From: Mucilaginibacter sp.
GTDB lineage: Bacteria > Bacteroidota > Bacteroidia > Sphingobacteriales > Sphingobacteriaceae
Direction: 5' to 3'
Assembly: GCA_025352225.1 (NCBI GenBank)
Contig: JANXTT010000073.1
Location: forward strand, 1-64,000
DNA length: 64,000 nucleotides
Below the pieces are notes generated by a model, which was not told the origin of the DNA, did no database searches, and saw only the letters and a list, made by a program, of their open reading frames with translations. Both the position numbers and the translations under genes were made by a program. Positions 39,706 to 54,739 of the stretch are shown piece after piece (the first letter of the stretch is position 1; each line of letters opens with the position of its first letter).

Positions 39706-39719
39706 ATGACCGGCATCAT
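39706..39719. promoter_or_regulatory. Crp/Fnr-type palindrome upstream of the hemerythrin operon
   Basis: ATGACCGGCATCAT, of the form ATGAY-N4-RTCAT. Its centre (39712.5) is 36.5 bp before the last base of the -7-like box CATATTTG, about -41 from the predicted start, the usual activating (class II) position. Confidence 0.65.
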
Positions 39720-39741
39720 GGCAGGGTATTAACAGCTTTAT

Positions 39742-39749
39742 CATATTTG
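39742..39749 (+). promoter_or_regulatory. -7-like element of the hemerythrin operon
   Basis: CATATTTG, one mismatch from TAnnTTTG, 15 nt before the ATG. An imperfect box fits an activator-dependent promoter. Confidence 0.5.
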
Positions 39750-39764
39750 TTAAAACCCATTAAG

Positions 39765-40256
39765 ATGGAAAACAAACCGATTAAACGAAGTAAGTATTTG
39801 GTAGCACTTTCCAGCGATCATCACTTTGGATTGTTGTTTTGCTCGAAAATCAAAAGCGGGCTGGACAACAATGTAGAACTCAATCGGATAGAAACGTACA
39901 TTAATTATTTTGCCGAACATCACTTAAAAGCGCATTTTAATCAGGAAGACGAATTGCTGTTTAATAAGATTGATGATGGGCTTTGCTATCAGGCAAAAGC
40001 GGAGCATCGGATGTTAATTGAGCGGTTAAATAGATTGAATTATTATGAAAATGAAGAAGCCCGGGATTATACTTTATTTGCGGAATTGCTGATCAAACAT
40101 ATTCGCTTTGAAGAAAGAATATTATTCCCGCATTTGGAAAACGTTATGCCATTATCCATTTTACATAACGTGTGTGGTTTTTTAACGCAGCAACATCAAG
40201 TGCCCTTTAACGATAACTATCCAGATGAATTTTGGAAAAAACAAGCCAATGCTTGA
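39765..40256 (+). CDS. Hemerythrin-like di-iron protein
   Basis: From ATG 39765 (I reject the upstream TTG at 39747) the 163-residue protein carries a hemerythrin HHE pattern: His19/20 (SDHHFGLLF), His53/57 and Glu61 (EHHLKAHFNQEDELLF), His81 (AEHRMLIERL), then His112, Glu116 and His123 (KHIRFEERILFPHLE). These can bind a non-haem di-iron centre for O2 or NO. It overlaps the reductase gene by 8 nt, so the two are tightly coupled. It is preceded by a Crp/Fnr-like site. Confidence 0.85.
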   Translation: MENKPIKRSKYLVALSSDHHFGLLFCSKIKSGLDNNVELNRIETYINYFAEHHLKAHFNQEDELLFNKIDDGLCYQAKAEHRMLIERLNRLNYYENEEARDYTLFAELLIKHIRFEERILFPHLENVMPLSILHNVCGFLTQQHQVPFNDNYPDEFWKKQANA

Positions 40257-41256
40257 AATCAACACCGATATTTGCATTGTAGGCGCGGGCCCGGTAGGGT
40301 TATTTGCTGTTTTTGAAGCCGGCTTGCTAAAAATGCGCTGTCATTTAATTGATGTACTTACACAAGTGGGTGGCCAGTTAACTGAAATTTATCCTCAAAA
40401 ACCAATCTATGATATTCCAGGATATCCCGAAATAAGCGCGCAAGAATTAATTGACAAATTAATGAAGCAAATAAAACCATTTCAACCTGGTTTTACATTA
40501 GGCGAACGTGTAGAAACGGTAACATCTGAACCCGACAGTTCCATTATTGTTAAAACCAATAATACAACAATAAAATGCCAGGCTTTAGTAATAGCTGGTG
40601 GCTTAGGGTGCTTTGAACCCCGTAAACCTAATATTGATCGGTTGATTGAATTGGAAGGCAAGGGAGTGGCTTATATGATAAAGGATCCCGAAATGTTACG
40701 TGATAAGGAAGTTGTAATAGCCGGAGGGGGAGATTCGGCACTTGACTGGGCCTTGTTTTTAACACCTATAGCTGCCAAAGTAACATTGATCCATCGGGGT
40801 GATACTTTTAGAGGTGTGCCGGATTCCGCCGAAAAGGTTTTTAGATTAGCGAAGGATGGTAAAATCAATTTAATTCTTCAGTCCAATATAATAGCACTAA
40901 ACGGCGACGAGCACTTGCAGTCGGTTTCAGTTTTGGCAGGCAATAATGCACTTACAACAATACCTGCTGACTACTTTATCCCTTTGTTTGGGCTAAGCCC
41001 CAAACTTGGGCCAATAGCTAAATGGGGGCTTGATATTGATAAATCAGCAATTGAAGTAAACACTGTAGATTTCTCTACCAATATTGATCGCATTTATGCT
41101 ATTGGAGATATTAATACCTATCCGGGTAAGCTAAAATTGATTTTATGTGGGTTTCATGAAGCTGCCCTAATGGCGCAGAGTGCTTTTAAGTACGTCTATC
41201 CGGATAAGAAATTGAGCTTTAAATATACTACCGTATACGGTATCCCATCTTTTTAA
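40249..41256 (+). CDS. Ferredoxin/flavodoxin-NADP reductase, thioredoxin-reductase-like type
   Basis: ATG 40249 (MLEINTDICIVGAGPVG) gives 335 residues and an 8-nt overlap with the hemerythrin gene. FAD-binding GAGPVG, an NAD(P)-binding motif VVIAGGGDSALDWAL, and the closing IYAIGDINTYPGKLKLILCGFHEAALMA are the YumC-type pattern. No redox CxxC is present, so it is not a thioredoxin reductase. It should pass electrons between NADPH and the 2Fe-2S ferredoxin encoded 2 bp downstream. Confidence 0.92.
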   Translation: MLEINTDICIVGAGPVGLFAVFEAGLLKMRCHLIDVLTQVGGQLTEIYPQKPIYDIPGYPEISAQELIDKLMKQIKPFQPGFTLGERVETVTSEPDSSIIVKTNNTTIKCQALVIAGGLGCFEPRKPNIDRLIELEGKGVAYMIKDPEMLRDKEVVIAGGGDSALDWALFLTPIAAKVTLIHRGDTFRGVPDSAEKVFRLAKDGKINLILQSNIIALNGDEHLQSVSVLAGNNALTTIPADYFIPLFGLSPKLGPIAKWGLDIDKSAIEVNTVDFSTNIDRIYAIGDINTYPGKLKLILCGFHEAALMAQSAFKYVYPDKKLSFKYTTVYGIPSF

Positions 41257-41258
41257 CG

Positions 41259-41576
41259 ATGATTGAAATTACTATTGAAGATAGCACCGGCAAACAAACC
41301 ATTTTAGATATACCAACAGATATCAATTTAAGCCTGATGGAAGTTTTGAAAGCCGCAGATTATGCTATTTTGGCCACCTGCGGCGGAATAGCATTATGTG
41401 CCACTTGTTGTGTACAAGTAGTAAAAGGTATGGAGCGGCTTCTGCCGCCCAATAATTCTGAAATGGATATGCTGGATGTTTTGCCAAATGCCAATCAATC
41501 TAGCAGACTTGCCTGCCAGTTAAGGATAAATAAAGAAATGGATGGGATGATTTTCCGGATCGCTGGAAAAGATTAA
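41259..41576 (+). CDS. 2Fe-2S ferredoxin (adrenodoxin type)
   Basis: The 105-residue protein has a C-x5-C-x2-C cluster motif (CGGIALCATC, Cys41, 47, 50) and the fourth ligand Cys86 (SSRLACQLRI). This is the adrenodoxin/Isc-type ferredoxin pattern. An extra Cys51 follows the third ligand. It starts 2 bp after the reductase, making a hemerythrin, reductase, ferredoxin operon. Its stop faces nosY (29 bp apart) from the opposite strand. Confidence 0.93.
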   Translation: MIEITIEDSTGKQTILDIPTDINLSLMEVLKAADYAILATCGGIALCATCCVQVVKGMERLLPPNNSEMDMLDVLPNANQSSRLACQLRINKEMDGMIFRIAGKD

Positions 41577-41604
41577 ACGTTGTAACTGTATTCCATCAAA
41601 AAAA

Positions 41605-42372
41605 TCAAAGGTCTTTCTTTTTGAAAATCCTCAAGGCAATTAATAACGGGGTTACTATCCAAACCAATTGCATTATCAATGAAAAAACAATGCCTTGGCC
41701 ACTGCCAAAAAACTGTTGATATAAGGCCCCCGTATAACCCATTAAAGCTGATATATCCAGTTGAAGCAGGATGAGTATCCGTGCAAGGTCAATGGGATTT
41801 AGCGCTGTTAAAAAAATCATCACTTTTTCTAGCGGGTAATCTGAAAAACAGAATAGAAAAAGTAATACCAGACCATCAAATATAATAGAACAATAAAACC
41901 AAATCATTAATGCCAGTCCGATACCTTTAGCTTTATCACGGGTAAGGGTGCAGGTTAGAAAAGCGAGCGAAACAAAACTTAATGTTAACAACGCACCCGA
42001 TGCCATTAAAGTTAACCCGGTTACAGAAAATGCAAATATTAAAACCGGAATGCATATGCCTACAAAAAAAGCAGACATAATAGCACTACTAATCCCTATA
42101 AATTTCCCTAATAATATGGTTTGCCTGCTAATAGGTTGAGATACGAGCAATTCGGTAAACTCAGTAGCATTAAAATAATAAGTGGTTGCGTAAACAATGC
42201 TTACCAGCGGCACAATGATCATCATTACTGTTGTGATACTTACCAAGCCCTTAGTTACGTCGGCATCAGTCATGAAAATGGTTAAGCTGATAGCCATTAA
42301 TAGCAAAGTATAGGCAATAATTACCTTACTTCTTATAATATCCAGGATAATATATTTCGCGATTTTTAACAT
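41605..42372 (-). CDS. nosY: NosY-like ABC transporter permease
   Basis: The 255-residue protein has about six membrane helices and is an ABC-2 type permease. It directly follows the NosF-like ATPase with no gap. In known systems NosY works with NosF and periplasmic NosD in maturing the CuZ centre of nitrous oxide reductase. It is the last gene of the nos operon here. Confidence 0.88.
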   Translation of the reverse strand: MLKIAKYIILDIIRSKVIIAYTLLLMAISLTIFMTDADVTKGLVSITTVMMIIVPLVSIVYATTYYFNATEFTELLVSQPISRQTILLGKFIGISSAIMSAFFVGICIPVLIFAFSVTGLTLMASGALLTLSFVSLAFLTCTLTRDKAKGIGLALMIWFYCSIIFDGLVLLFLFCFSDYPLEKVMIFLTALNPIDLARILILLQLDISALMGYTGALYQQFFGSGQGIVFSLIMQLVWIVTPLLIALRIFKKKDL

Positions 42373-43083
42373 TTAACAACTTAAAATTTTGGTTAATACT
42401 TTACCCAGTTTTAGTTCGCCTGTTTCTTCTTTCAAGTCCTGTAAAGACTTATAAAATTTAATTTGTCCTTCAAAAAGATACATCACCTTATCAGAAATTT
42501 CATCCGCTTCGCTCATGATATGTGAAGTGATCAGAATTAATTTACCTTTAGATCTTTCATCCAATATTTTTTCTTTAAGATATTCTGCCGCAATTGGGTC
42601 AAGGCCCGCAGTAGGCTCGTCTAAAATAAGCACGTCCGGATTGAACATAAAAGCCAAAGCCGCGCTTACTTTTTGCAACGTCCCCCCGGATAAGGTATGC
42701 ATGGTTTTATGAAACATGTTTTCAAGGTGGTAAGCCTTTAACAGGTCGGTATCTAAAGCGGTTTTTTCTTGTCTGATGTCCATAATCATCTCAAACAACT
42801 GCCCAATTTTCATATTATCAGGATAATGACCAATTTGGGGCATATAGCCAATATGCTTTTTATAGGCAAAAGTATTAACAACCTGCTTGCCGCTAAATAA
42901 AATCTCGCCACAGTCCGGGATCACCATTCCGAGAATGGTTTTAATCAGCGTTGTTTTGCCTGATGCATTTGGCCCGAGGATAGAAACAATATTACCGATT
43001 TCAAAACTGCAATCTATACCCTTTAATACCTCTAAACGGCCAAATTTTTTTTTAAGCCCCCGAATTTCAATTATCTTTTCCAT
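42373..43083 (-). CDS. nosF: NosF-like ABC transporter ATPase
   Basis: The 236-residue ATPase shows Walker A GPNASGKTT, Q-loop, signature LSGGTLQKVSAALAF, Walker B VLILDEPTAGLDP and switch His (ITSHIMSEADE). It is placed between nosD and nosY and overlaps nosD by 13 nt, as expected for NosF of the NosDFY complex. Confidence 0.92.
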   Translation of the reverse strand: MEKIIEIRGLKKKFGRLEVLKGIDCSFEIGNIVSILGPNASGKTTLIKTILGMVIPDCGEILFSGKQVVNTFAYKKHIGYMPQIGHYPDNMKIGQLFEMIMDIRQEKTALDTDLLKAYHLENMFHKTMHTLSGGTLQKVSAALAFMFNPDVLILDEPTAGLDPIAAEYLKEKILDERSKGKLILITSHIMSEADEISDKVMYLFEGQIKFYKSLQDLKEETGELKLGKVLTKILSC

Positions 43084-44306
43084 GGTTTCATTCTGGGTTT
43101 TTCGTCTTTTACCGATTCTGGTGTAACCGAGGGTATAGCCCTTTCTACCTTATCCAGCAGATTTACAATAAAACTCCTCATCAGCATAACGCTTTGCGGA
43201 ATTTTCTCTATGATTTGCGCGTACAGGCTGATTGGCCTATAGGGGATGTCGCCTATGCCATCTTTGTTTAAATCATATCCTTCGTATTTATCCCAATAAT
43301 TATTATTAAAATAATTGTGTTTTAGCGTGCCATTGGTAGTTACATCAAATGAGTTCCCCTTAAAATTATTTTGCGTAAAAGTATTCTTGTCGCAACTTGC
43401 CAATACCCTTATGCCCCACCCGTTTGACTGGAAGTTGTTGTTAGTTATGTTGATGCGATCTGAGCCTTCCATATAAACCCCGGTTGTGTTACGTATAAAA
43501 CGGTTACCCTCAATTTGGCTGTCAGAAATTTCTTTAAGCAATAAGCCATAAATAGAGCTCCCCCAGTTTTCGATAAACAGATTATTTAACATTTTAATGC
43601 GCCTGGTATACATTACAGATACGCCCGATCCATTATTTTTGAAGGTATTGTGCCGGTAAATATCATCGTCAGAAAACATGAAATGCATACCATAACGGAT
43701 GTTTTTTTCGCTGAAATTATCTTCAATAAGGCTCTTTTTTGCAAATTCAAAATAGATCCCGTCGCGGTGCCGGGTAACATAATTCCCTTTTATAAAAATG
43801 TATTTGCATTTCCAGAGATGGATGCCGTTGCCTGAGTTTTCCTGGTTGTTTGAGCCGGTTAAATGGTTATGCAATACCTGGATGTGTTTTGAGTCGGATA
43901 GGTAGATGCCAAAAAAGTTGTTTCGTAAAATGTTATTACTGATAATAACGTACGCTACATTGTTTAACCGGATGCCTGCGTAATCTCGCATGGAACCTGT
44001 TTTAGAATTTTGAATAATAAAGCCATCAAATTTAACATGACTAGCGGTAATGGTTACCACCTCTTCATGGAAACGAGCGTCTAACACAGGAGCATTTTCT
44101 CCTAAAATTGTAAGTTCTTTATTAATCAACGTATTCTCAGATACATATATTCCCTTTTTAACGATGATGGTATCTCCGGAGTTAGCTATTTTAATAGCAG
44201 CCTTTAATGATGAAATAGTAGTTTTAGGAGCTACAATAATGGTTTTTGCTAAAACCGATACCGGCAGCAATAAAAAAATATATAGTTTAAAAAATATCCA
44301 TCTCAT
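43071..44306 (-). CDS. nosD: Nitrous oxide reductase maturation protein NosD
   Basis: The 411-residue periplasmic protein has a signal peptide (MRWIFFKLYIFLLLPVSVLA) and many right-handed beta-helix repeats (NNILRNNFFGIYLSDS and similar NN..F..NG units), the CASH/NosD-type structure. It donates copper-cluster components to NosZ with NosF and NosY. It follows nosL by 12 bp and overlaps nosF. Confidence 0.95.
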   Translation of the reverse strand: MRWIFFKLYIFLLLPVSVLAKTIIVAPKTTISSLKAAIKIANSGDTIIVKKGIYVSENTLINKELTILGENAPVLDARFHEEVVTITASHVKFDGFIIQNSKTGSMRDYAGIRLNNVAYVIISNNILRNNFFGIYLSDSKHIQVLHNHLTGSNNQENSGNGIHLWKCKYIFIKGNYVTRHRDGIYFEFAKKSLIEDNFSEKNIRYGMHFMFSDDDIYRHNTFKNNGSGVSVMYTRRIKMLNNLFIENWGSSIYGLLLKEISDSQIEGNRFIRNTTGVYMEGSDRINITNNNFQSNGWGIRVLASCDKNTFTQNNFKGNSFDVTTNGTLKHNYFNNNYWDKYEGYDLNKDGIGDIPYRPISLYAQIIEKIPQSVMLMRSFIVNLLDKVERAIPSVTPESVKDEKPRMKPWKR

Positions 44307-44318
44307 GGGTGCCTTTGG

Positions 44319-44756
44319 TTACCTCGTTTTTAGCATTTCGGGCCAATTGTATAGTTTAGCGGTTTTACTATCAATCGCTGTAGTTGCTCGTTCTTTAGAT
44401 ATAAAGGCAGCAAGGTTACCGCCCATGGGCGATTTGAATATGCCATCCGAAAGAAAGTAGCAATTTTGGGCATTAACTAAAACCCCAGGTTTATTATAGG
44501 TGCAAACTAAAAAAATAGTGTTCTGATCCGCAGCTATTTGGGGTTCAGTTTTCAAATAGGCCGCCATACATTCTGCAGCGTCAAACTTAAAAACCTTTCC
44601 TTTTGGAGTAACTATTTCAGCAGCAAACCTTTTGTCCATTATTGTCATTCTGCAATGCGCACAAGCATCCTTTCCATATTGAATAGGTTGTGGTTCACGG
44701 CTACACGACACTATTAAAAAAAGCACAGCAATTGCAAAAAGGGCTAATATTTTCAT
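44319..44756 (-). CDS. nosL: Copper-binding lipoprotein NosL
   Basis: The 145-residue product has a lipobox (FLIVSCSREP, Cys19). It carries the NosL motif CAHCRMTIMDKRFAAEI with the Cys/Met copper site and a later KFDAAECMAAYL. NosL is a Cu(I) chaperone for nitrous oxide reductase. Its start overlaps the upstream membrane-protein gene by 4 nt. Confidence 0.93.
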   Translation of the reverse strand: MKILALFAIAVLFLIVSCSREPQPIQYGKDACAHCRMTIMDKRFAAEIVTPKGKVFKFDAAECMAAYLKTEPQIAADQNTIFLVCTYNKPGVLVNAQNCYFLSDGIFKSPMGGNLAAFISKERATTAIDSKTAKLYNWPEMLKTR

Positions 44757-45328
44757 TTTAGTTTATGTGGTGATAAGCGAAATTCACTAAATAAAGATAC
44801 CGCTACCAGCAGTCCACTTAATCCCACTAAAATCCCTCCCGTGTCCGGTAACGATCCGGCGGTAAAGTTGAGCAGTTGCTTGTAGCCAACAAGTGGTGGC
44901 TGATAATTCATACCCTCAACCTTTATAGCCGCGTGCGGGTTTAAATTATGCCCATAATTATATTCCCACATATAAAAATCGGCAAACCCTAACATCGCAA
45001 ATAGGCATAGACTAATAAACCATATGCGTAAAAGCTTGCGGCTGTTGATGAAAACTGTAATAAAACCCGTCAGAATGATCAGACCGAAAATATAAGGTAG
45101 GATTTTAAATTCTGAAAAATCGTCCGCTTTGATAAATTTCATGCCGATATAGTGGTTAAGCCCATTGATCTGTTCAATATTTCCAGATAAGCCATTAAGT
45201 GATATTTTCATCTCAAGACCTTCGGGATATTGTGGCGCATCCAGCAAAATATGCCATAAAGGAATAAAATAAGCACTTATCATCAACATTGCTCCAATAA
45301 TGATCATTATTCTGGATGAAAGTTTCAT
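44753..45328 (-). CDS. Membrane protein of the nos operon
   Basis: The 191-residue protein has about four membrane helices (IIIGAMLMISAYFIPLWHIL at the start, ILPYIFGLIILTGFITVFI, and two more). Small membrane proteins of this kind sit beside nosZ in Bacteroidota and may serve the role of NosB of clade II operons, but I cannot show this from sequence. It lies between the terminator-like hairpin after nosZ and nosL. Confidence 0.7.
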   Translation of the reverse strand: MKLSSRIMIIIGAMLMISAYFIPLWHILLDAPQYPEGLEMKISLNGLSGNIEQINGLNHYIGMKFIKADDFSEFKILPYIFGLIILTGFITVFINSRKLLRIWFISLCLFAMLGFADFYMWEYNYGHNLNPHAAIKVEGMNYQPPLVGYKQLLNFTAGSLPDTGGILVGLSGLLVAVSLFSEFRLSPHKLK

Positions 45329-45340
45329 AATAATTAGGGA

Positions 45341-45379
45341 TAAAAAGTGTATCGCGATATAGAGAAGCGCGATACACTT
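45341..45379 (-). terminator. Intra-operon terminator directly after nosZ
   Basis: A perfect 12-bp stem (AAGTGTATCGCG with CGCGATACACTT) with an 11-nt loop, followed on the minus strand by TTTTTATC. It lies 10 bp beyond the nosZ stop and 17 bp before the next ATG, so it should cut transcription of the downstream nos genes partly. Confidence 0.8.
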
Positions 45380-45389
45380 GTGGCAAATA

Positions 45390-47372
45390 TTATTGAGTTA
45401 CGGGGTTGTTACCGATTGAAAATTTTAATGGAACTTTTGAATCTGCAGTAGACACTCTGAAATAGCCTTGCATTTCCTGATGGAGCGCAGAACAAAAGTC
45501 GGTGCAGTAAAAAGGCACTATACCAACCCGTTCCGGGTTCCATTTTAAGGTCATGGTTTCTCCTGGCATAATCAATAGTTCAGCGTTATTTGCCCCCTTG
45601 ATAGCAAATCCATGAGGTACATCCCAGTCTTGTTCCAGGTTGGTTACGTGTACATAAACATCATCGCCAAGTTTTATCCCTTCAATATTATCCGGAGCGA
45701 GGTGCGAGCGGATAGCCGTCATGTAAACATCAACTCTGCTCCCGGTTCTAACCACTTTGGCGTCTTTCTCCATACGGGTAACATAGGGGTTTTTGTTGTC
45801 TTCCAGTTTAAAAAACTTTACCTGATTTTTAAGGATCTTCTCGGCCGGGATAGCCTGTGCATAATGTGGTTCGCCAATGGTTGGAAAATCGAGCAACAGT
45901 TTCATCTTATTTCCAGAAATATCGATCAGCTGGCATGCCTGTGCTAATTCGGGGCCGGTTGGCAAATACCTGTCTTTTGTGATTTTATTTAAAGATAGCA
46001 AATACTTACCGTAAGGTTTCTTTGAATCGCCACCAGGGATACATAAATGTCCGGGAGAATAAAATGAAGGTATCCTGTCAATAATTTCCAGGTTTTCTAT
46101 CTTCCATTTTACAACTTCTGATGATACAAACATGGTGGTATAGGCAAAGCCCTTACCATCAAACTCGGTATGCAACGGGCCCAAACCCGGTTTTTTTACT
46201 TCGCCATGCAAAACTGCTTCGTATTTCAAAACGGGCAAATTACCGGATATTTTTCCTTCGAATTGCTTTTTGTCTATCGCGTCAAGCATCTTTTTAAACG
46301 AAAAAACAGGAATAACGGCGGCAAGCTTTCCACTCGCCACAATATATTCGCCATCAGGGGTTACATCAACACCATGCGGAGATTTTGGACAAGGGATATA
46401 ATACACTAAACCCGGAAACTGAGTAACATCCAATATTTGTGTCTCTTTCTCCATCGTTGAGGTTGCCATATGCGTACTTTCGTTATATACATTATGGGCG
46501 TATTTGGCTGCGATCTTCGTTCCTTTGCCGGCCTTAATCAGCTCTTCAGCCTTTTTCCAGTTTACGGCCATCACATAATCTTTATCCCGCTGACTGGCAT
46601 TTACTTCCAGCAGCGTATGCGCCTGTTCTGTATTGTAACAAGTAAAGAATATCCAATCGTGTGATGGGCCTTTTCCGGCGTGGGCCAAATCATAATTAAA
46701 CGGTGGCACTATAAGCTGGAACGCCAGATTCATGGTTCCTTTATCCTTATCTACCTTAACAAAAGATACCGCGCCTTTAAAGTTTTCTTTATAACTGTCT
46801 ATCGGGACATCGTTTTTTGTATAATCCAAAGGCTGACTAAAACGGGTATTCCCAACTACGTATTCTGTGTTTTCGGTACAGAAAGGCGAGGCATGATTGC
46901 CACCAATATTTGGCAGTTCCAATATCTCCGCAGTTTTGAATGTGGCCAGGTCAATCCGGGCGATGCGGGGCGTATTATTGCCGTTAATAAATATCCATCT
47001 GCCGTCATCTTCGCCATTGGTTTTTGATAACTCGGGATGGTGAGAATCATCCCAGGGTACAAACCCATGCGAAGTATTTAACATTGGTTTGGTTTCTTCA
47101 GTATAACCATATCCGTTTTCGGGATTTTGCGAGAACACCGGGATAACTTTTAGCAACCGCCCTGACGGTAACCCGTATGCTGCAATCTGACCGCTAAAAC
47201 CACCAGATAAAAAAGCATACAGTTCATCATACTTGCCCGGAGCTACGTAAACTTTTTGTGCCGCATCAGCATCTATTGATGCCCCAACTTTACCCGGTTT
47301 GCACGAAGATGTAAATAGAGATGCCAACATAACTGATGTTAACAGAATAAGTGTATTGTATGAACGTTTCAT
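45390..47372 (-). CDS. nosZ: Nitrous oxide reductase, Sec-type (clade II), predicted lipoprotein
   Basis: Reduces N2O to N2 in the periplasm. The 660-residue protein keeps all seven CuZ histidines (His111, 112, 160, 333, 401, 442, 503; for example DDSHHPELSKTNG and SPHGVDVTP). The CuA site is also complete: His587 (VPHGFAI), Cys623, Cys627, His631, Met634 (CTDFCSALHQEM). No twin-Arg motif is present. The N-terminus MKRSYNTLIL to FTSSCKPGK is a Sec lipoprotein signal with Cys24, so the enzyme may be membrane-tethered. It follows a cytochrome c gene by 20 bp. Confidence 0.97.
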   Translation of the reverse strand: MKRSYNTLILLTSVMLASLFTSSCKPGKVGASIDADAAQKVYVAPGKYDELYAFLSGGFSGQIAAYGLPSGRLLKVIPVFSQNPENGYGYTEETKPMLNTSHGFVPWDDSHHPELSKTNGEDDGRWIFINGNNTPRIARIDLATFKTAEILELPNIGGNHASPFCTENTEYVVGNTRFSQPLDYTKNDVPIDSYKENFKGAVSFVKVDKDKGTMNLAFQLIVPPFNYDLAHAGKGPSHDWIFFTCYNTEQAHTLLEVNASQRDKDYVMAVNWKKAEELIKAGKGTKIAAKYAHNVYNESTHMATSTMEKETQILDVTQFPGLVYYIPCPKSPHGVDVTPDGEYIVASGKLAAVIPVFSFKKMLDAIDKKQFEGKISGNLPVLKYEAVLHGEVKKPGLGPLHTEFDGKGFAYTTMFVSSEVVKWKIENLEIIDRIPSFYSPGHLCIPGGDSKKPYGKYLLSLNKITKDRYLPTGPELAQACQLIDISGNKMKLLLDFPTIGEPHYAQAIPAEKILKNQVKFFKLEDNKNPYVTRMEKDAKVVRTGSRVDVYMTAIRSHLAPDNIEGIKLGDDVYVHVTNLEQDWDVPHGFAIKGANNAELLIMPGETMTLKWNPERVGIVPFYCTDFCSALHQEMQGYFRVSTADSKVPLKFSIGNNPVTQ

Positions 47373-47392
47373 GAGATGTACTTTAAATGCGG

Positions 47393-47893
47393 TTATTTGA
47401 TTGAGTCGTTTTTTCTAAAAAATTCCAGTATCTGCCGTGTTTCATCGTCCGACACATTTTGAAAGGTCATTTGGGTTAGGTGTTTCTCCAATAAGGCTTT
47501 GCCTATGGGGTCTTTCTGTTCCATTTCAATGGGATTAGTAATCTGATTCATCACCCACTCCGGTGTGCGCCTTTCTGTAATGCCCTTTAACCCCGGGCCC
47601 ACAATTTTTTGATCGGTAGTTTTATGACAGGCAGAGCATTTGGCAGCGAATATAGCCTTACCCTTTTCGGCCATTGAAGCATCAATTGGCCCTAGCTGAA
47701 CTGATGTAAATTTTCCGACCCCCTTACTTTCACTTTTCGCATTAAGGTCTATAACCGGGGTTTCAGTAGTTGTTGCTGTGGCTTTTGAAGAAGAATCTTG
47801 CGACGACGAATTTGACTGCCCCCCTCCACATGCGTATAAAAAAGTAATACATCCTAATATTAAAGCGGAGATAAGATTTTGTAGTTTTTTCAT
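47393..47893 (-). CDS. Mono-haem cytochrome c lipoprotein of the nos operon
   Basis: The 166-residue product has a lipobox (FLYACGGG, Cys22), a Ser/Thr-rich linker and a class I cytochrome c domain. The haem site is CSACHKTTDQKIVGPGLKG, with a likely Met ligand in LTQMTF. It is first gene of the nos operon and probably the electron donor of NosZ. Its start lies 22 nt from the predicted transcription start below the shared Crp/Fnr-like palindrome. Confidence 0.92.
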   Translation of the reverse strand: MKKLQNLISALILGCITFLYACGGGQSNSSSQDSSSKATATTTETPVIDLNAKSESKGVGKFTSVQLGPIDASMAEKGKAIFAAKCSACHKTTDQKIVGPGLKGITERRTPEWVMNQITNPIEMEQKDPIGKALLEKHLTQMTFQNVSDDETRQILEFFRKNDSIK

Positions 47894-47918
47894 GTTCTTT
47901 CTTTGTAATTAATATTTT

Positions 47919-47926
47919 CAAAACTA
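47919..47926 (-). promoter_or_regulatory. -7 promoter element of the nos operon
   Basis: TAGTTTTG on the minus strand matches TAnnTTTG exactly. It is 58.5 bp from the centre of the palindrome at 47971-47984, two helical turns further than in the other island promoters. Confidence 0.55.
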
Positions 47927-47970
47927 TAGGTAAATAGTTGAGCCATAAATGATGCTTCTTACTATAAAGT

Positions 47971-47984
47971 ATGATATATATCAT
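47971..47984. promoter_or_regulatory. Crp/Fnr-type palindrome shared by two divergent operons
   Basis: ATGATATATATCAT, a perfect palindrome with TGAT-N4-ATCA core, between the nos operon (minus) and the DUF2249 operon (plus). Its centre is 36.5 bp from the end of the plus-strand -7 box and 58.5 bp from that of the minus strand. Activation of both is plausible. Confidence 0.7.
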
Positions 47985-48006
47985 ATGATAGTATCTAATC
48001 CTTTGT

Positions 48007-48014
48007 CAATTTTG
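48007..48014 (+). promoter_or_regulatory. -7-like element of the DUF2249 operon
   Basis: CAATTTTG, one mismatch from TAnnTTTG, at the same distance (36.5 bp) from the palindrome centre as in the hemerythrin operon. It predicts a leader of about 77 nt. Confidence 0.45.
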
Positions 48015-48094
48015 CTGTATTATGTTAAATCAATACCGGTTTACATCGTTTTTTAATGAACACATTGCCACCTGTTATTTAATACCATACAGCT

Positions 48095-48904
48095 ATGTTA
48101 ATTAATGCGTATACCCGGATTAAGGATCTTTTAGATTTTAACCAGGAAGAGGTTATCAATACATTAATAAAGCTTAACAAGAATTTTTCTAAGCTTAAAA
48201 ACCCCCTATTGCGTAATTTATTTGCCCGTAGAATTACCATTGCGGATGCTTGTAAAATTGCTAATTGCCCTATTTCCGCATTTATGAGCAGCATGCAGCA
48301 GATTGGTTTTGTGGTTGATCCGCAAAAAATAAATGAACAAAAAATCAGCACCGAACCATTTAAAAAGTACGCGCATATTATAGAACTAGATGTACGCCCC
48401 GTACTGGCAAAAAATCAAGATCCGCTAAAAACCATTTTGGATCATATCAATAAACTGGAAGCGGGGCAACGTTTAAAACTGATCAACACATTTGAACCAA
48501 TACCTCTTATTCATTTGCTAGCCGAAAAAGGATTTTGCAGCCATACGGAATTTACAGCTAACGAAATAGTTTACACTTATTTTGAAAAAGATAGTACGAC
48601 AGATCAAAAGATCGTTGAAACCCACCCTGCTATACTTCTGAATAATGAAGATAAGTTTGATGAAACGTTAACCAAATTTACGCCCAATCATATTAAATAT
48701 ATTGACGTAAGGGCACTCGAAATGCCTAAACCCATGCTTTTGATTATTGAGCATATTAAAACATTAGCCCTTGGAGAAGCGCTCTTTGTATACCATAAAA
48801 GAAAGCCGATTTACCTGCTCCCCGAATTAGAAAAATCAGGGTTTAAATATCTTTTTAAAGAGACGCTACCGGGGGATGTAAATATGCTGATCTATAAATT
48901 ATGA
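48095..48904 (+). CDS. DUF2249-domain protein (two copies) with DUF1858-like start
   Basis: The 269-residue cytosolic protein has an N-terminal helical domain resembling DUF1858 (TIADACKIANCPISAFMSSM, about residues 48-67). Two DUF2249-type domains follow. The first begins at about 90 (IIELDVRPVLAKNQDPL, then IPLIHLLAEKGF), the second at about 205 (YIDVRALEMPKPMLLII). DUF2249 is also at the N-terminus of Ric in this window. The domain is common near NO-related genes but its activity is unknown. The stop overlaps the next ATG by 4 nt. Confidence 0.82.
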   Translation: MLINAYTRIKDLLDFNQEEVINTLIKLNKNFSKLKNPLLRNLFARRITIADACKIANCPISAFMSSMQQIGFVVDPQKINEQKISTEPFKKYAHIIELDVRPVLAKNQDPLKTILDHINKLEAGQRLKLINTFEPIPLIHLLAEKGFCSHTEFTANEIVYTYFEKDSTTDQKIVETHPAILLNNEDKFDETLTKFTPNHIKYIDVRALEMPKPMLLIIEHIKTLALGEALFVYHKRKPIYLLPELEKSGFKYLFKETLPGDVNMLIYKL

Positions 48905-50193
48905 GTACAATAAAACACGATGCTTCACTTTACAAAATTGTAGTTATACACTACTTGATAGCGGCTGTTTGCTTTTTGGTATTAGCGGTAATGATGTTGT
49001 TTTCTGTGGATGTGTTTTCCGGCCATTATTTTCAACCTAAAATATTAGCGATGACGCATATGGCTGTATTAGGATGGGGCACTTTAATAATTTGGGGCGC
49101 GTGTTACCAGTTGCTCCCAGTTGTGCTCGAAACCGAACTGTTTAGTAAAAAGCTGGCCTGGATAAGCTTATCGCTATTTTTGCCTGGATTAATTGCGTTG
49201 GTATATTCTTTTTGGGTATTTAATCCGGGGATACACATGGAGTGCGGAAGCATTTTATTGCTATCCTCCATACTGTTGTTTACCATTAATGTGTTTTTTA
49301 CGGCCCGCAAAAAACAGCAAGGATCTATCCAGCACGACTTTATTTTTACCTCATCTTTATGCCTGGCTTTTACCACTTTATTAGGAACCGCTTTGGTGTT
49401 TAATTTTCAATTTGCATTTCTTCCTCAGGATCAGCTTCATTTTTTAAAATTGCATGCCCATATAGGTATAGTAGGTTGGTTTTTGTTGTTGGTAATAGGG
49501 GTAAGCACTAAACTCGTACCCATGTTTCTGGTTTCAAGTTATCACAACACCCGGCTTTTATTATGGAGTTATTACCTTATTGTTGTTGCTTTGCTTTTAT
49601 TTTTGGTTGATGCCTATATATGGGGCATTAACTACAAAACTTACTTTATCGTTTTAATCGGATCAGCGGGCATTGCATGTTATTTAGTTTTTATAGGCAA
49701 ATGTTATAAGTCGAGGATAAGAAAAACTATTGATCTGCCAATGATGCATACCTTTTTTTCATTGATGCTGCTTGCAATCGCGATCATTATTCTACCGCTT
49801 ATCATTACGTATAACCTAAAAAATGATCCTGCTTCGGTGCGTTATTCTCTGCTTTATGGATCAATGCTTTTTATGGGTTGGCTTACCGCTTTAATACTAG
49901 GACAAACATTTAAAACCTTACCATTTATTGTTTGGATAAAACATTATGAGCACTTAACAGGCAAAGTACAAACACCAATGCCAGCAGATCTGGTTCAAAA
50001 TAACATACTTAAAATACAAGCGGTTGGCTTAGTGGTTTTTTGCATTACCTTTTTTGGGGGATGTTTGTTTTCGTCTGTACTGCTTAAATATATTGGGATA
50101 TCAGCTTTGTTAATATCGGCGATAACGTATTTAGTTAATGTAATACACGTGCTTTTACATCAATCAAAAACTACAACATATGATAAGGTTTGA
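48901..50193 (+). CDS. Polytopic membrane protein, haem-copper-oxidase/NnrS-like
   Basis: The 430-residue protein has about 12 membrane helices. Conserved histidines lie in helix ends (AMTHMAVLGWGTL, LHAHIGIVGWFLL, KHYEHL), as in oxidase subunit I/CcoN and NnrS-type proteins. The helix VI-VII copper histidine pattern of true oxidases is not evident. It may bind haem or copper and act in NO handling, but this is inference. It is translationally coupled to the DUF2249 gene, and its end overlaps the MIP18-family gene by 14 nt. Confidence 0.7.
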   Translation: MSTIKHDASLYKIVVIHYLIAAVCFLVLAVMMLFSVDVFSGHYFQPKILAMTHMAVLGWGTLIIWGACYQLLPVVLETELFSKKLAWISLSLFLPGLIALVYSFWVFNPGIHMECGSILLLSSILLFTINVFFTARKKQQGSIQHDFIFTSSLCLAFTTLLGTALVFNFQFAFLPQDQLHFLKLHAHIGIVGWFLLLVIGVSTKLVPMFLVSSYHNTRLLLWSYYLIVVALLLFLVDAYIWGINYKTYFIVLIGSAGIACYLVFIGKCYKSRIRKTIDLPMMHTFFSLMLLAIAIIILPLIITYNLKNDPASVRYSLLYGSMLFMGWLTALILGQTFKTLPFIVWIKHYEHLTGKVQTPMPADLVQNNILKIQAVGLVVFCITFFGGCLFSSVLLKYIGISALLISAITYLVNVIHVLLHQSKTTTYDKV

Positions 50194-50512
50194 CATTACA
50201 GATCAGCTTTCTTTTATGAAAATGGGCATAGTGGAATCCCTGCGTTTAGTTATGGACCCTGAATTGCACATCAATATTATTGAGTTAGGATTAGTTTACG
50301 GGGTTAAAATAGACGAAACTAATAAGCAGATAGGCATTGAAATGACATTGTCTTCGCCGTATTGCCCTATGGGGGAGAGTATTTTATCGGCAGTAAAAAA
50401 CTGCATCGAAGGCCATTTTATAGGTTTCCAAGCAACCGTTGAATTAGTATGGGAGCCGGTTTGGTCGTACGATAACATTACCGAAGAGGGTAAAAGGCTC
50501 CTATCTATTTAA
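50180..50512 (+). CDS. MIP18-family (DUF59) Fe-S assembly protein
   Basis: The 110-residue protein has the DUF59 pattern: VMDPELHINIIELGLVYGV near the start and MTLSSPYCPMGESI with the conserved cysteine. Such proteins (SufT, PaaD-like) help mature Fe-S proteins. Here it is sandwiched between two oxidase-like membrane proteins with overlapping or 2-bp junctions, so it probably serves a metalloprotein of this operon. Confidence 0.88.
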   Translation: MIRFDITDQLSFMKMGIVESLRLVMDPELHINIIELGLVYGVKIDETNKQIGIEMTLSSPYCPMGESILSAVKNCIEGHFIGFQATVELVWEPVWSYDNITEEGKRLLSI

Positions 50513-50514
50513 CC

Positions 50515-51729
50515 ATGGGTTGGATCAGCAAATTCAAATACCCACAATGGGCTTTAATTAATTTTTTAGTATTAGCCTTATGGGGGCTTGTAATGCGGTA
50601 CATGCAAGTTTACGCATTGCCAGGGGTTAATTATCAGTTTATTATGCATGCGCATTCGCACTTTGCATTTGCTGGTTGGATGTTCTTTTCTATAGCCCTG
50701 CTCATTATCCATACTGTTGACGGTGGTAAATATTCTACAGCTTACAAGCAGGTGCTTATTGGGGCATTGTTAAGTGCTTACGGCATGCTGATCTGTTTTT
50801 CTTTCCAGGGATACAAAGCCCTTTCCATAGGCATGTCAACCCTGTTTATTTTAGTCACCTACCGTTTTACGTATCTGGTTATTAAAGATGTAAATTTAAA
50901 GGTACGGCTAAATGATGTATCCATAAAGCTGCTATACGCGGCACTAGGTTTATTATGCTTTTCGTCGCTTGGCCCGGTAGCTTTGGGCCCTATCGTTGCA
51001 ATGGGTTTTCGCAATACGCCGTTTTATCAAAATACCATATACTTTTACCTGCATTTCCAGATGAACGGATTTATGCTCTTTGCCGCATTAGGTTTATTCG
51101 GTTCAACATATCTCACCCGGCTTTTAAACAAGGAAATCAAATGGTGGTTGTACCTGTTTATTTTTTCCACCGTCCCGCTTTTCTTTATTTTTACTTTATG
51201 GGATAAGCCGGGCTTATGGGTATGTTTTATAGCATTCTCAAGTTCAGGTATAAATTTGATTAGCTGGATAAACCTGTGTATGTATTTCAAACAAGCGGCC
51301 CGTGGTTTCTCACTACTTGTCAATTTGGCTCTTATAGCTATTACCCTTAAAATTGTATTTCAGGTACTTATTTGTATACCGGCTATAGGCCAATGGGCTT
51401 TTTCAAATCGCAATCTGATTGTAGGGTACATTCATTTATTAACTTTAGGCAGTATAACCCCTTTATTATTAGATCAATTTATAAAGAAAGCTTTGGTGGC
51501 TAGTTCTAAAAATTTATCAATTATCAATTGGGTTTACATCACCACAGTTATAATTTATTTAGCCTTATTATTTATGCAGCCTTTACTTTCGCTTTGGTTA
51601 ATAGCAATCCCTCATTATCAGGCTATTTTGCTGGTATGTTGTATTTTTTTCGTTATCGCGGCAGTATCCTATTTTTACCAATCCTTTAAAGTCCCAAGCG
51701 AGGGTAAGTATTTTGCATCGCAGGTTTAA
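50515..51729 (+). CDS. Second polytopic haem-copper-oxidase-like membrane protein
   Basis: The 404-residue protein has about 11-12 membrane helices. Histidines are clustered in FIMHAHSHFAFAGWMFF, FYLHFQMNGFMLF and GYIHLLTLGSITPLL, patterns seen in CcoN-like and NnrS-like families. It is distinct from the first membrane protein, so the operon encodes two different such proteins. It starts 2 bp after the MIP18 gene and is last in the operon, followed by a hairpin. Confidence 0.7.
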   Translation: MGWISKFKYPQWALINFLVLALWGLVMRYMQVYALPGVNYQFIMHAHSHFAFAGWMFFSIALLIIHTVDGGKYSTAYKQVLIGALLSAYGMLICFSFQGYKALSIGMSTLFILVTYRFTYLVIKDVNLKVRLNDVSIKLLYAALGLLCFSSLGPVALGPIVAMGFRNTPFYQNTIYFYLHFQMNGFMLFAALGLFGSTYLTRLLNKEIKWWLYLFIFSTVPLFFIFTLWDKPGLWVCFIAFSSSGINLISWINLCMYFKQAARGFSLLVNLALIAITLKIVFQVLICIPAIGQWAFSNRNLIVGYIHLLTLGSITPLLLDQFIKKALVASSKNLSIINWVYITTVIIYLALLFMQPLLSLWLIAIPHYQAILLVCCIFFVIAAVSYFYQSFKVPSEGKYFASQV

Positions 51730-51740
51730 CTAACCTATAA

Positions 51741-51765
51741 ATCAAACCCCCTTTTGGGGATTTGA
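51741..51765. terminator. Hairpin between convergent genes
   Basis: Stem ATCAAACCCC with GGGGATTTGAT (one mismatch, CCCC-GGGG core), loop about CTTTT, 11 bp after the stop. It probably terminates from both sides. Confidence 0.65.
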
Positions 51766-51783
51766 TCATATCATCATTAAAAA

Positions 51784-52623
51784 TTATTGTGGTTTAACTG
51801 TATTTGCAATCATAGTAACAGCTGTTTGTGCAAATAATTTCCCGGTAACTTTAGCACCTGTATTCAGGGAAACCAACGTTTTGCTTAGTACAATTCCACT
51901 AAAGTCAGTATACGTTCCAAGAGTAGCCTGGCCAGATACTATCCAAAAAACATTTTTGGCCTGGGCACCGCCTGCTAAAGTAATAATAGCGCTATTATTT
52001 ACTACAAGATCTTGCGCGATCTGGAAAACCCAAATATCATTTGGCCCGCCGCGTAGGGTTACGCCTGCATTTGTAACCAAAACGCCTGTACTCCATTTAT
52101 AAAGCCCCGGAGCCAATGTTTGTCCGCTAATATCACCAGCGTACATTTCAACCAATGGAGAAGGGTCTGTTATACCATTGGCCGTGGTAAATGCAGTTTC
52201 CATATCGCCTATAGCGGTGGTCATTTTAGACGGGGTAGGAACCGCATAGTCTGGGCCATAAACATTTCCGGTTACGATAGGTGTATGCGAAGACTGGTTA
52301 TCATTCGCCATTATCAATCCAAACCCGGTTAAAGCTGTTGAGCCTATAGGGCTTGTGCCAATATCACCCAAAATTGAGGTAACTCCAGTAGTTGTGATAC
52401 CTGTTTCTGTTAAAATGGTAAAATCGTTGGCGGTTCTCAAATTAATGGGCGCCAGACCAGTTGCCGAGCTTGCCGCGAAACTTGACGACATGTTTGATTT
52501 TGGAAGCAGGTTAGTTGCTTCTTTTGCAGTTTCTTTTTTACAGCCCGACGTAAAAACACCAAGCAATAACGCAAACGAGCACATCGTTTTAAATAGTTTA
52601 GAATAGCCTTGGTTCTGGCTCAT
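51784..52623 (-). CDS. Ice-binding-family (DUF3494) lipoprotein
   Basis: From ATG 52623 the product is 279 residues with a lipobox (GVFTSGCKKE). An upstream in-frame ATG at 52662 would add 13 residues. The mature part is a DUF3494-type beta-helix: FTILTETGITTTGVTSILGDIGTSP, then a TLAPGLYKWSTGV segment and GGPNDIWVFQIAQDLVV. Such proteins bind ice or act as adhesins at the cell surface. It lies within the nitrogen-oxide island but has no evident link to it. Confidence 0.88.
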   Translation of the reverse strand: MSQNQGYSKLFKTMCSFALLLGVFTSGCKKETAKEATNLLPKSNMSSSFAASSATGLAPINLRTANDFTILTETGITTTGVTSILGDIGTSPIGSTALTGFGLIMANDNQSSHTPIVTGNVYGPDYAVPTPSKMTTAIGDMETAFTTANGITDPSPLVEMYAGDISGQTLAPGLYKWSTGVLVTNAGVTLRGGPNDIWVFQIAQDLVVNNSAIITLAGGAQAKNVFWIVSGQATLGTYTDFSGIVLSKTLVSLNTGAKVTGKLFAQTAVTMIANTVKPQ

Positions 52624-52928
52624 AGGAGAACAATTTTTAGTGAAATTGATTCTGTTAATCATGGTTGATGATTTTAATTATTATGTGAATTTTTAAGTCT
52701 GCAATTCTTTATGAGTTTTTTATAAAGCTTTCCATTGAGTTCAGTTGTGCAAGGCTAGTGCCCCGTATGCCCAGCACATTTCTTGCTGATTTGCTTTAAA
52801 TGCGGTTTTTATGATATTTTTAATAGGCATTAAGGCTCCTGCGTTTAACATGGATGGATATTTCCAATTAGAAGCTCATTATTTAAGGCGATTGAATTAT
52901 TGGGTTATAAAAAAATGACTGTCGCTCT

Positions 52929-52952
52929 ACAAACCAGGTTTGTTATCATAAC
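52929..52952. promoter_or_regulatory. Two adjoining palindromes, operator-like
   Basis: ACAAACC-A-GGTTTGT (52929-52943) overlaps by 2 bp with GTTAT-C-ATAAC (52942-52952). Both are perfect with a single central base. The regulator is unknown. Confidence 0.45.
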
Positions 52953-53034
52953 GAATAGTTTTGCGCAATTTAATTAATTATAAATATGTTATTATTTCTA
53001 TCAAATTAATTTAATTATTACCGTTTCATAAAAA

Positions 53035-53048
53035 GTGATCGTGATCAT
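53035..53048. promoter_or_regulatory. Additional Crp/Fnr-type site
   Basis: GTGATCGTGATCAT contains the TGAT-N4-ATCA core. It is too far from ric (285 bp from the ATG) for direct activation. A TAAATTTG box starts 11 bp beyond it. Confidence 0.45.
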
Positions 53049-53250
53049 TATTTGAAATTAAATTTGGCAACGGACGGCTATGATAAACTATAAGTTGAAT
53101 TTTTAACCTATTATGATTAGTATAAAGGAATATAGTGTAGCATATTAACTAAAAATTCACCAATCTTAATCAAATCACGGATGTAAATGTTCGTCATCTG
53201 GTTCCAACACAAATTTTAGATAGCAGATATGTTTAAGATTTGCATGTTTC

Positions 53251-53264
53251 ATGACCCTTATCAT
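53251..53264. promoter_or_regulatory. Crp/Fnr-type palindrome upstream of ric
   Basis: ATGACCCTTATCAT, form ATGAY-N4-RTCAT. Its centre lies 35.5 bp before the last base of the -7 box TAATTTTG, near -40 from the predicted start. Confidence 0.65.
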
Positions 53265-53285
53265 TTATTATTTAAGGGTAAAGGA

Positions 53286-53293
53286 TAATTTTG
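53286..53293 (+). promoter_or_regulatory. ric -7 promoter element
   Basis: TAATTTTG, exact TAnnTTTG match, 27 nt before the ATG. Confidence 0.6.
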
Positions 53294-53320: not shown

Positions 53321-54271
53321 ATGGAAACTACAGATTATTTAGATGTAACCCTGATTGAACCAAGGTTAAAACATCCTACCATCTTTCAAAAATTTGATTC
53401 TCTATCATCAGGTGCTTCATTTGTTATTAATAACGATCACGACCCTAAACCTTTGTACTACCAGTTACTTGCAGAAAGGGGGCAAGTTTTTTTATGGGAA
53501 TATTTAGCAGATGGCCCCGAAATTTGGAAGGTTAAAATAACCAGAAAAACCGCTAATCAGGAAGAAGAAACCATTGGCCAAATAGTAGCTAAAGATTATA
53601 GGAAAGCACAGGTCTTTAAAAAATTCGGTATTGATTTTTGTTGTGGAGGCAAAAAAACAATAGCCGAAGTTTGCGAAAAGAAAGGAATAAATGTAGCGGA
53701 TGTTGAGCAACAACTTTTATTAATTAAGGGTGAAGATGTTGATAGCGAAAAAGACTTTCAAAAATGGGATCTTGGTTTTTTAAGCGATTATATAATTAAC
53801 ACCCACCATCAATATGTAAAAGACAATACCGCGTTTATAAATGAACTTGCTCAAAAAGTAGCCAGGGTACATGGCGACCGTCATCCGGAGGCATTTCTTG
53901 TTGCCGAAGTTTTTGATAGAATAGGGAAAGTGCTTACGCTGCACATGATGAAAGAAGAGAAAATCCTTTTTCCGCATATTAAAGAACTAGCCAATATTAA
54001 GAAAACCGGAGGGCTACTCCCGGCTGCCGAGTTTGGTAAAATATCCACCCCTATCCACCTGATGGAATCAGAGCATGAGCAGGCTGGTGATGATTTTGAA
54101 ACCATACGAGATCTCACAGCAAATTACCGCTTACCTGCCGATGCCTGCAGCTCTTATACTATTCTGTACAAAATGCTGGAAGAATATGAAAACGACCTTC
54201 ACCGCCACGTGCATTTAGAAAACAATATCCTATTTCCTAAAGCTATAGAATTAGAAAAAGAGTTATCCTGA
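53321..54271 (+). CDS. ric: Iron-sulfur cluster repair di-iron protein (Ric/ScdA/YtfE) with DUF2249 domain
   Basis: Repairs Fe-S clusters damaged by NO or oxidants. The 316-residue protein has three parts: an N-terminal DUF2249-like domain (about 5-78, HDPKPLYYQLLAERGQVF), the ScdA_N domain (about 85-140, FKKFGIDFCCGGKKTIAEVC) and a C-terminal hemerythrin-like di-iron domain (THHQYVKDN, HMMKEEKILFPHI, HLMESEHEQAG, HLENNILFPKA). YtfE lacks the first domain. A Crp/Fnr-like site lies upstream and an Rrf2 regulator gene 39 bp downstream. Confidence 0.93.
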   Translation: METTDYLDVTLIEPRLKHPTIFQKFDSLSSGASFVINNDHDPKPLYYQLLAERGQVFLWEYLADGPEIWKVKITRKTANQEEETIGQIVAKDYRKAQVFKKFGIDFCCGGKKTIAEVCEKKGINVADVEQQLLLIKGEDVDSEKDFQKWDLGFLSDYIINTHHQYVKDNTAFINELAQKVARVHGDRHPEAFLVAEVFDRIGKVLTLHMMKEEKILFPHIKELANIKKTGGLLPAAEFGKISTPIHLMESEHEQAGDDFETIRDLTANYRLPADACSSYTILYKMLEEYENDLHRHVHLENNILFPKAIELEKELS

Positions 54272-54310: not shown

Positions 54311-54739
54311 ATGATGTTTTCAAAATCGTGCGAATATGCCATCAGGGCTGCAGTATATATTGCCGGCGAAAGCAGCATCAGCAATAAAGTAAGCATTGTT
54401 CAAATTGCTCATGCAATTGATTCCCCAAAACATTTTACCGGGAAAATTTTGCAAACCTTATCTCGTAAAAAAATAATATCATCCCTAAGGGGGCCGCATG
54501 GTGGGTTTTATATTGACAATGACAGTTCGGTTTTTTTAATTGATATTATCAGGGCTATTGATGGTGATGAACTTTTTACTTCGTGCGTGCTGGGGCTAAA
54601 AAAATGTTCAGATATTAAAACATGTCCCGTTCATGAGCAAATACAACCGATAAGGAACCAGCTTACTATTGAGTTCAGTAAAAAGTCGTTAAATGAGATG
54701 ATCCTGGACGTTAAACAAAATAAATATTTTTTAAAGTAA
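54311..54739 (+). CDS. Rrf2-family transcription regulator with three cysteines
   Basis: The 142-residue protein has the Rrf2 winged helix (SKSCEYAIRAAVYIAGE, then ISSLRGPHGGFYID wing). Three cysteines at C-x6-C-x5-C spacing (CVLGLKKC then CSDIKTC) match the Fe-S ligand region of NsrR/IscR-type sensors. Next to ric, an NO- or Fe-S-sensing role is likely, but which sites it binds is unknown. Tandem ATG codons occur at 54311 and 54314. Confidence 0.9.
   Translation: MMFSKSCEYAIRAAVYIAGESSISNKVSIVQIAHAIDSPKHFTGKILQTLSRKKIISSLRGPHGGFYIDNDSSVFLIDIIRAIDGDELFTSCVLGLKKCSDIKTCPVHEQIQPIRNQLTIEFSKKSLNEMILDVKQNKYFLK

Follow-up and report, generated by a model that had tools for sequence, protein, structure and literature searches.

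The stretch of DNA analyzed here (the window) comprises 64,000 nucleotides of Mucilaginibacter sp., a genus of the family Sphingobacteriaceae, and corresponds to positions 1 to 64,000 of contig JANXTT010000073.1 (C27; assembly GCA_025352225.1). It carries a nitrous oxide reductase (nos) operon, a DUF2249 operon divergent from it, a hemerythrin operon and a gene for the iron-sulfur cluster repair protein RIC (Table 1). Among the best 80 of 95 nosZ relatives, the nearest are mostly from Mucilaginibacter. An earlier, sequence-only reading had described four palindromes of the form RTGAYN4RTCAT in this region as the element that ties together a nitrogen-oxide island. All four were found, and their function and the identity of the regulator that binds them are the subject of this analysis.

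Table 1. Operons, palindromic sites and promoter boxes in the window
Feature	Position	Strand	Remark
Operator ATGACCGGCATCAT, hemerythrin operon	39706..39719	+	centre 36.5 bp before box end
Promoter box CATATTTG, hemerythrin operon	39742..39749	+	deviates from TAnnTTTG
Hemerythrin operon	39765..41576	+	hemerythrin-domain protein, thioredoxin-reductase-like flavoprotein, 2Fe-2S ferredoxin
nos operon	41605..47893	-	c-type cytochrome, Sec-type nosZ, unknown membrane protein, nosL, nosD, ABC ATPase, permease-like protein
Promoter box TAGTTTTG, nos operon	47919..47926	-	58.5 bp from strong site
Second, weak nos site GTAAGAAGCATCAT	47949..47962	-	22 bp downstream of first; centre 36.5 bp before box end
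Operator ATGATATATATCAT, common to divergent nos and DUF2249 operons	47971..47984		strong upstream site for nos; class II site for DUF2249 operon
Promoter box CAATTTTG, DUF2249 operon	48007..48014	+	36.5 bp from operator centre
DUF2249 operon	48095..51729	+	DUF1858/DUF2249 protein, membrane protein, SufT-like protein, membrane protein
Palindrome GTGATCGTGATCAT	53035..53048	+	without box at class II distance or 22 bp further
Operator ATGACCCTTATCAT, RIC gene	53251..53264	+	centre 35.5 bp before box end
Promoter box TAATTTTG, RIC gene	53286..53293	+	
RIC gene	53321..54271	+	DUF2249-RIC, ScdA/YtfE-type iron-sulfur cluster repair protein; TIGR03652 above cut-off
Rrf2-family regulator	54311..54739	+	behind RIC

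Counted on both strands, RTGAYN4RTCAT has seven matches in the window, compared to a mean of 0.84 and a largest count of five in whole-window shuffles. The core TGAYN4RTCA is a weaker signal, with six matches where 2.52 are expected and two of 100 shuffles reaching six. All four RTGAYN4RTCAY sites in the 64 kb are intergenic (7,098 intergenic bases according to the gene list), whereas a first-order Markov simulation predicts 0.059 such sites for this DNA; the largest simulated count was two, and none of 2000 simulations reached four.

The sites had been placed at fixed distances from TAnnTTTG-like promoter boxes, measured from the palindrome centre to the last base of the box, and recomputation returned the same values: 36.5 bp for the hemerythrin (39712.5 to 39749) and DUF2249 operons (47977.5 to 48014), 35.5 bp for RIC (53257.5 to 53293), and 58.5 bp for nos on the minus strand (47977.5 to 47919). 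Taken alone, TAnnTTTG occurs in the window at chance level (95 seen, 94 expected), so the information lies solely in the fixed spacing. Within the genome of this Mucilaginibacter, the motif with a YAnnTTTR box at 36.5 bp was found five times (two of these in the window) and its control not at all; site-N22-TAnnTTTG with the strict box has no match there. Across 121 genomes of the family the latter pattern yields 140 matches in 68 genomes (totals summed by hand) and its reversed control eight. Changing the spacer to site-N18-TAnnTTTG leaves four matches in four genomes, again with eight for the reversed control, and this spacer control is the one to rely on. The N22 form is present in 39 of 148 genomes across the phylum (reversed control, three matches): by row count, in 29 of the 37 genomes of the window's own class and in 10 of 111 elsewhere.

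The same distances stand out at loci that were chosen by NosZ. Among 140 instances from these loci, the YAnnTTTR box lies at 36.5 bp in 46, at 37.5 bp in 22 and at 58.5 bp in 10, and no other distance accounts for more than seven instances. A pooled histogram of 185 instances also takes in own-genome loci picked for the motif; three pattern controls on this set (1, 7 and 3 instances) are weak, owing to their differing letter make-up and the motif-chosen loci.

In Flavobacterium psychrophilum, the promoter box is reported to span -12 to -5 (PMC9723704); with the box at this position, a distance of 36.5 bp corresponds to an operator centre at -41.5, and 58.5 bp to -63.5. Transferring this conversion to Mucilaginibacter, we infer the start sites by analogy. 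The fixed distance of 36.5-37.5 bp to the box end would then put the operator centre near -41.5, in agreement with the class II activator position that had been claimed for these sites.

Conservation was counted over all 80 NosZ loci, 76 or 68 of which had enough upstream DNA; partial sets (48 of the 80 loci listed, and 31 hand-picked loci with an upstream site) were kept out of these counts, and relatives are in any case non-independent samples. Of 76 loci selected by NosZ alone, 25 have ATGAYN4RTCAT in the 800 bp upstream of nosZ, compared to zero to two loci for each of the 12 other spacers (0-3 and 5-12). The median for 60 permuted half-sites is zero loci; one of them, AYGAT, gives 15 since it also matches ATGAT. 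At 32 of 68 loci, RTGAYN4RTCAY stands before the gene for the nos cytochrome; going by record titles, these loci belong to Sphingobacteriaceae, Weeksellaceae, Flavobacteriaceae or unplaced Bacteroidetes bins, and no Ignavibacteria or Verrucomicrobia are among the 32. The box is found at 58.5 bp from nine of these nos sites, at 36.5 bp from 10, at 37.5 bp from 10 and at other distances from three (35.5, 38.5 and 80.5 bp). Upstream sites are likewise present at RIC in 10 of 30 loci (10 of 11 in the Sphingobacteriaceae), at the DUF2249 operon in five of 10, all five at 36.5 bp, and at Rrf2 orthologues in two of 20. Relatives with both operons have separate sites for nos and DUF2249, and the single common site is a local arrangement of the window. 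With its TGA half-sites, its fixed spacer and its conservation before orthologous operons, the palindrome has the properties of a Crp/Fnr operator.

For the nos operon, the spacing of 58.5 bp given by the sequence-only reading is correct, but a weak second site at 36.5 bp (GTAAGAAGCATCAT) had been overlooked. Its promoter-proximal half is intact and its distal half degenerate, and with a matrix derived from class II sites it scores 3.6, the best of 36 offsets in the window's nos promoter. The +22 offset recurs in most Mucilaginibacter nos promoters. In a set of 23 promoters of the 58.5 type (box at 57.5-59.5 bp, none at 35.5-37.5 bp), the matrix maximum falls at +22 in 15, at +23 with a box at 59.5 bp in three and elsewhere in five, and the mean score is -0.5 at +22 versus -7 to -16 at the remaining 35. 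As the weak site lies 22 bp downstream of the strong one, the -41.5 position is occupied at nos also, and the sequence of the nos promoter is best read as a tandem arrangement with a site at the class II position. The same tandem layout is found in this genome at ccoNO, at one universal-stress gene and at the gene divergent from ccoI; ccoI itself has a box at 58.5 bp, but the second match that scores best there falls at a different offset. The gene divergent from ccoI (L053:1617-3404, contig C78, minus strand), with its own 58.5-bp site and weak +22 site, encodes a 595-aa protein for which no Pfam or NCBIfam match was found, and a gene with a similar start also lies behind a site in L143, at 18010. 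In L090, L092, L093, L095, L096, L099 and L122, a small lipoprotein-like gene located some 6-9 kb downstream of nosZ is preceded by site pairs of another spacing, about 32-33 bp apart.

The description as a nitrogen-oxide island holds in so far as one common operator is involved, but it is too narrow. Sites in this genome are also located upstream of ccoNO, ccoI, hemN, two universal-stress genes (boxes at 36.5 and 58.5 bp) and a cheB-cheR gene (box at 36.5 bp), as well as upstream of the kinase gene discussed below; hemN, usp and other gene names given without a family search were read from translations. At hemN only GATATTTG at 57.5 bp was seen by eye, and the counting pattern does not accept it. 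Sites before cbb3 oxidase, hemN, universal-stress and kinase/regulator genes make this more than a nitrogen-oxide regulon, and the gene set is probably that of a low-oxygen response. In F. psychrophilum, cbb3 oxidase and haem synthesis are reported to be raised under oxygen limitation (PMC9723704).

No family was assigned to the two membrane proteins of the DUF2249 operon (48901-50193 and 50515-51729); the sole family signal for the former is a weak match to cbb3 subunit I (E 0.003), and a search of the Protein Data Bank (PDB) with it gave no match. Between the DUF2249 and RIC operons lies a gene for an ice-binding-like protein (PF11999; 51784-52662), 373 bp from the upstream palindrome GTGATCGTGATCAT, a distance too great for a clear link.

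As had been claimed, the window has no crp/fnr gene: the genome contains nine PF00027 and two PF13545 matches, and none of them is on contig C27. Complete Crp helix-turn-helix (HTH) proteins number two in this assembly, which is 97% complete. One of them, L036 (G000:C22), is a fusion of receiver, cyclic nucleotide-binding (cNMP) and Crp HTH domains, encoded directly behind a kinase gene. FixL is the best PDB match of the kinase's PAS domain (2.5e-24), and the His and Arg that function in the haem pocket of FixL are aligned. Together with its HisKA and HATPase_c domains, this makes the kinase a predicted haem-binding sensor of the FixL type. A single fusion protein stands behind the kinase gene, and not a separate FixJ receiver inducing a separate FixK; the pair would at most work like a Fix cascade. 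The fusion has no N-terminal cysteine cluster.

Two core sites are present upstream of the kinase gene in this genome, the upstream one 58.5 bp from GATATTTG by manual reading, and an intergenic core match precedes the kinase in 10 of 13 Sphingobacteriaceae loci fetched with the L036 protein (L209-L221). In 12 of these 13 loci a core TGAYN4RTCA also overlaps the stop codon of the fusion gene, and most of these stop-codon sites stand ahead of a lactate-dehydrogenase-like gene and hemN; neither the site nor these neighbours are found at the fusion locus of the Mucilaginibacter genome itself. A further locus, L084:20792-20958, has three sites between a universal-stress gene and a divergent FixL-like kinase gene, about 10 kb from nosZ. 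A close fusion orthologue is encoded in 86 of 121 family genomes; regulator-orthologue searches covered 47 of the 80 NosZ genomes. Covariation between the recognition helix and the outer operator base (A or T) was considered and dropped: the Fnr proteins of TTGAY-type genomes (L087, L100, L116) and of the ATGAY-type Weeksellaceae mostly share Glu-x-x-Ile/Thr-Arg.

Our best explanation, which we consider rather probable, is that the palindrome is a Crp/Fnr class II operator of a low-oxygen regulon, with the receiver-Fnr fusion as the likeliest regulator. An activator bound at -41.5 would act by class II activation on the TAnnTTTG promoters of Bacteroidota. At nos, the strong copy at -63.5, two turns above the weak proximal copy at -41.5, may aid binding to the latter. 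The regulon would comprise cbb3 oxidase, oxygen-independent haem synthesis, stress proteins, N2O reduction and the repair of nitric-oxide (NO) damage. With the fusion as the likeliest regulator, low oxygen becomes the predicted cue: as oxygen falls, the adjacent FixL-like haem-PAS kinase would switch the fusion, which would also regulate its own expression. We advance more tentatively, with somewhat less than even confidence, that kinase and fusion compress FixL-FixJ-FixK into one step, that clade II N2O reduction and NO-damage repair would thereby come under oxygen rather than nitrogen-oxide control, and that the 22-bp tandem operator would set the threshold for nos and cbb3.

Several observations weigh against this explanation. 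Over the whole genome, the strict motif without its box shows no excess over the reversed-pattern control (41/43 versus 37/41), and 30 of 53 strict sites examined (those within 300 bp of the ends of fetched stretches being excluded) lie inside open reading frames, 23 being intergenic according to a crude caller. Many matches are thus not functional. The concern that the motif might be as common away from respiration genes therefore applies to the bare palindrome, but not to the palindrome with its box; of 301 core sites in the genome, the first 50 or so were gone through. The palindrome GTGATCGTGATCAT, which we assign to no gene, lacks a box near 36 or 58 bp; the only boxes around it are at 24.5 (plus strand) and 60.5 bp (minus strand). 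Among close relatives, nos lacks an RTGAYN4RTCAY site in L082, L083, L086 and L094, and conservation before orthologous operons, which holds for nos, RIC and DUF2249, is poor for the hemerythrin operon at 39765 (one of seven loci, L074). In eight of the 23 promoters of the 58.5 type +22 is not the best offset, and the score of the window's second site is modest. As for the regulator, G051, G093 and G070 have five, six and three class II matches without a fusion orthologue, which rules out exclusive co-occurrence of the fusion and the site architecture across the family; G013 (L086) has fusion proteins yet no nos site; and the Weeksellaceae have the nos site but a different Fnr of 237 aa, so that the operator by itself does not point to the fusion. 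It seems to be common to several Fnr lineages, and the fusion is the likeliest, not the only and not a proven, candidate for this genome. In nine of nine loci (L177-L184, L196), a core site lies about 20 bp ahead of the start of the 237-aa Fnr gene itself, a position that would suit negative autoregulation.

The other complete Crp HTH protein, the Fnr-like L037 (G000:C38), could read the same operator and sense oxygen or NO directly through an iron-sulfur cluster. It has N-terminal cysteines at positions 8, 13, 16 and 19 and another at 107, the position of the fourth cysteine in Escherichia coli Fnr; its helix retains the Glu and Arg that read TGA, its orthologues occur in all Sphingobacteriaceae nos genomes searched, and two of five orthologue loci examined have a core match upstream (L157, L158). 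However, L037 sits among nitrate-assimilation genes (names by eye), its own promoter contains no core match, and G009 and G013 have close orthologues yet no strict nos site, which leaves this an unlikely explanation. A separate, L037-specific palindrome was ruled out, as the promoters of its orthologues have just A/T runs in common. We judge it similarly improbable that a dedicated NO- or nitrite-responsive Crp/Fnr protein drives the nitrogen-oxide operons through an operator shared with the oxygen regulator, in the way Dnr and NnrR share an operator with Fnr in other bacteria. RIC and hemerythrin are typical nitrosative-stress genes, the Rrf2 gene adjoining RIC could add NO control, and a truncated cNMP-domain Crp-like protein (L043) ends at a contig edge, its DNA-binding part not being found; but just two Crp HTH proteins are complete in this near-complete assembly, the operators of RIC and nos are no different from those of ccoNO and usp, and we saw no gene for a nitrite or NO reductase in the window, the genome not having been searched for them. 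That chance palindromes lie beside real but unrelated promoters would fit the lack of raw enrichment and the boxless site at 53035, but is ruled out for practical purposes by the intergenic excess, the conservation and the spacing rule with its spacer control; we give it next to no credence.

Compared with known systems, the proposed class II operator read by the receiver-Fnr fusion resembles that of E. coli Fnr, which binds TGA half-sites in a 14-bp palindrome, activates from a class II centre at -41.5 and has targets such as hemN. The likeness extends to palindrome length, centre and hemN; E. coli Fnr differs in its preference for an outer T (TTGAT), its sigma-70 promoters and its N-terminal cysteine cluster. 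The closest working parallel would be FixL-FixJ-FixK2 of Bradyrhizobium diazoefficiens, which controls nosRZDYFLX under low oxygen from a site at -40.5 (PMC5582078). There too, a haem-PAS kinase senses low oxygen and a Crp/Fnr-type activator acts on nos, but through a three-protein cascade and TTG(A/C)-N6-(T/G)CAA, in contrast to a kinase with one fusion protein, the operator RTGAY-N4-RTCAY, promoters of the TAnnTTTG type and, at nos, a strong and a weak site in tandem. As the fusion differs in architecture and operator, we do not file it as FixK. HcpR2, a Crp/Fnr-family regulator of nitrosative stress in Bacteroides and relatives, is described as binding GTAACnnnnGTTAC before hcp (PMC1274295); in a comparison confined to the operators of the window, none matches this consensus. 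For Nitrosophilus labii, of another lineage, Crp/Fnr-type sites are likewise predicted upstream of a clade II nosZ, with the consensus TTGA-N6-TCAA and two mismatches allowed (PMC11539149).

We found no literature on this operator, or on nos regulation, in Bacteroidota, although subscription papers were thinly covered and one may exist; the regulation would be of a known kind, in a phylum from which our searches turned up no account of it. Bacteroidota that have clade II nosZ are considered sinks for N2O. An operator common to many genomes of the class, together with the -41.5 rule and a named candidate, makes the question of how they regulate nos directly testable, and the site-box pattern offers a simple means of locating their low-oxygen promoters. 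Should oxygen, and not N2O, be the cue, N2O consumption would follow oxygen supply.

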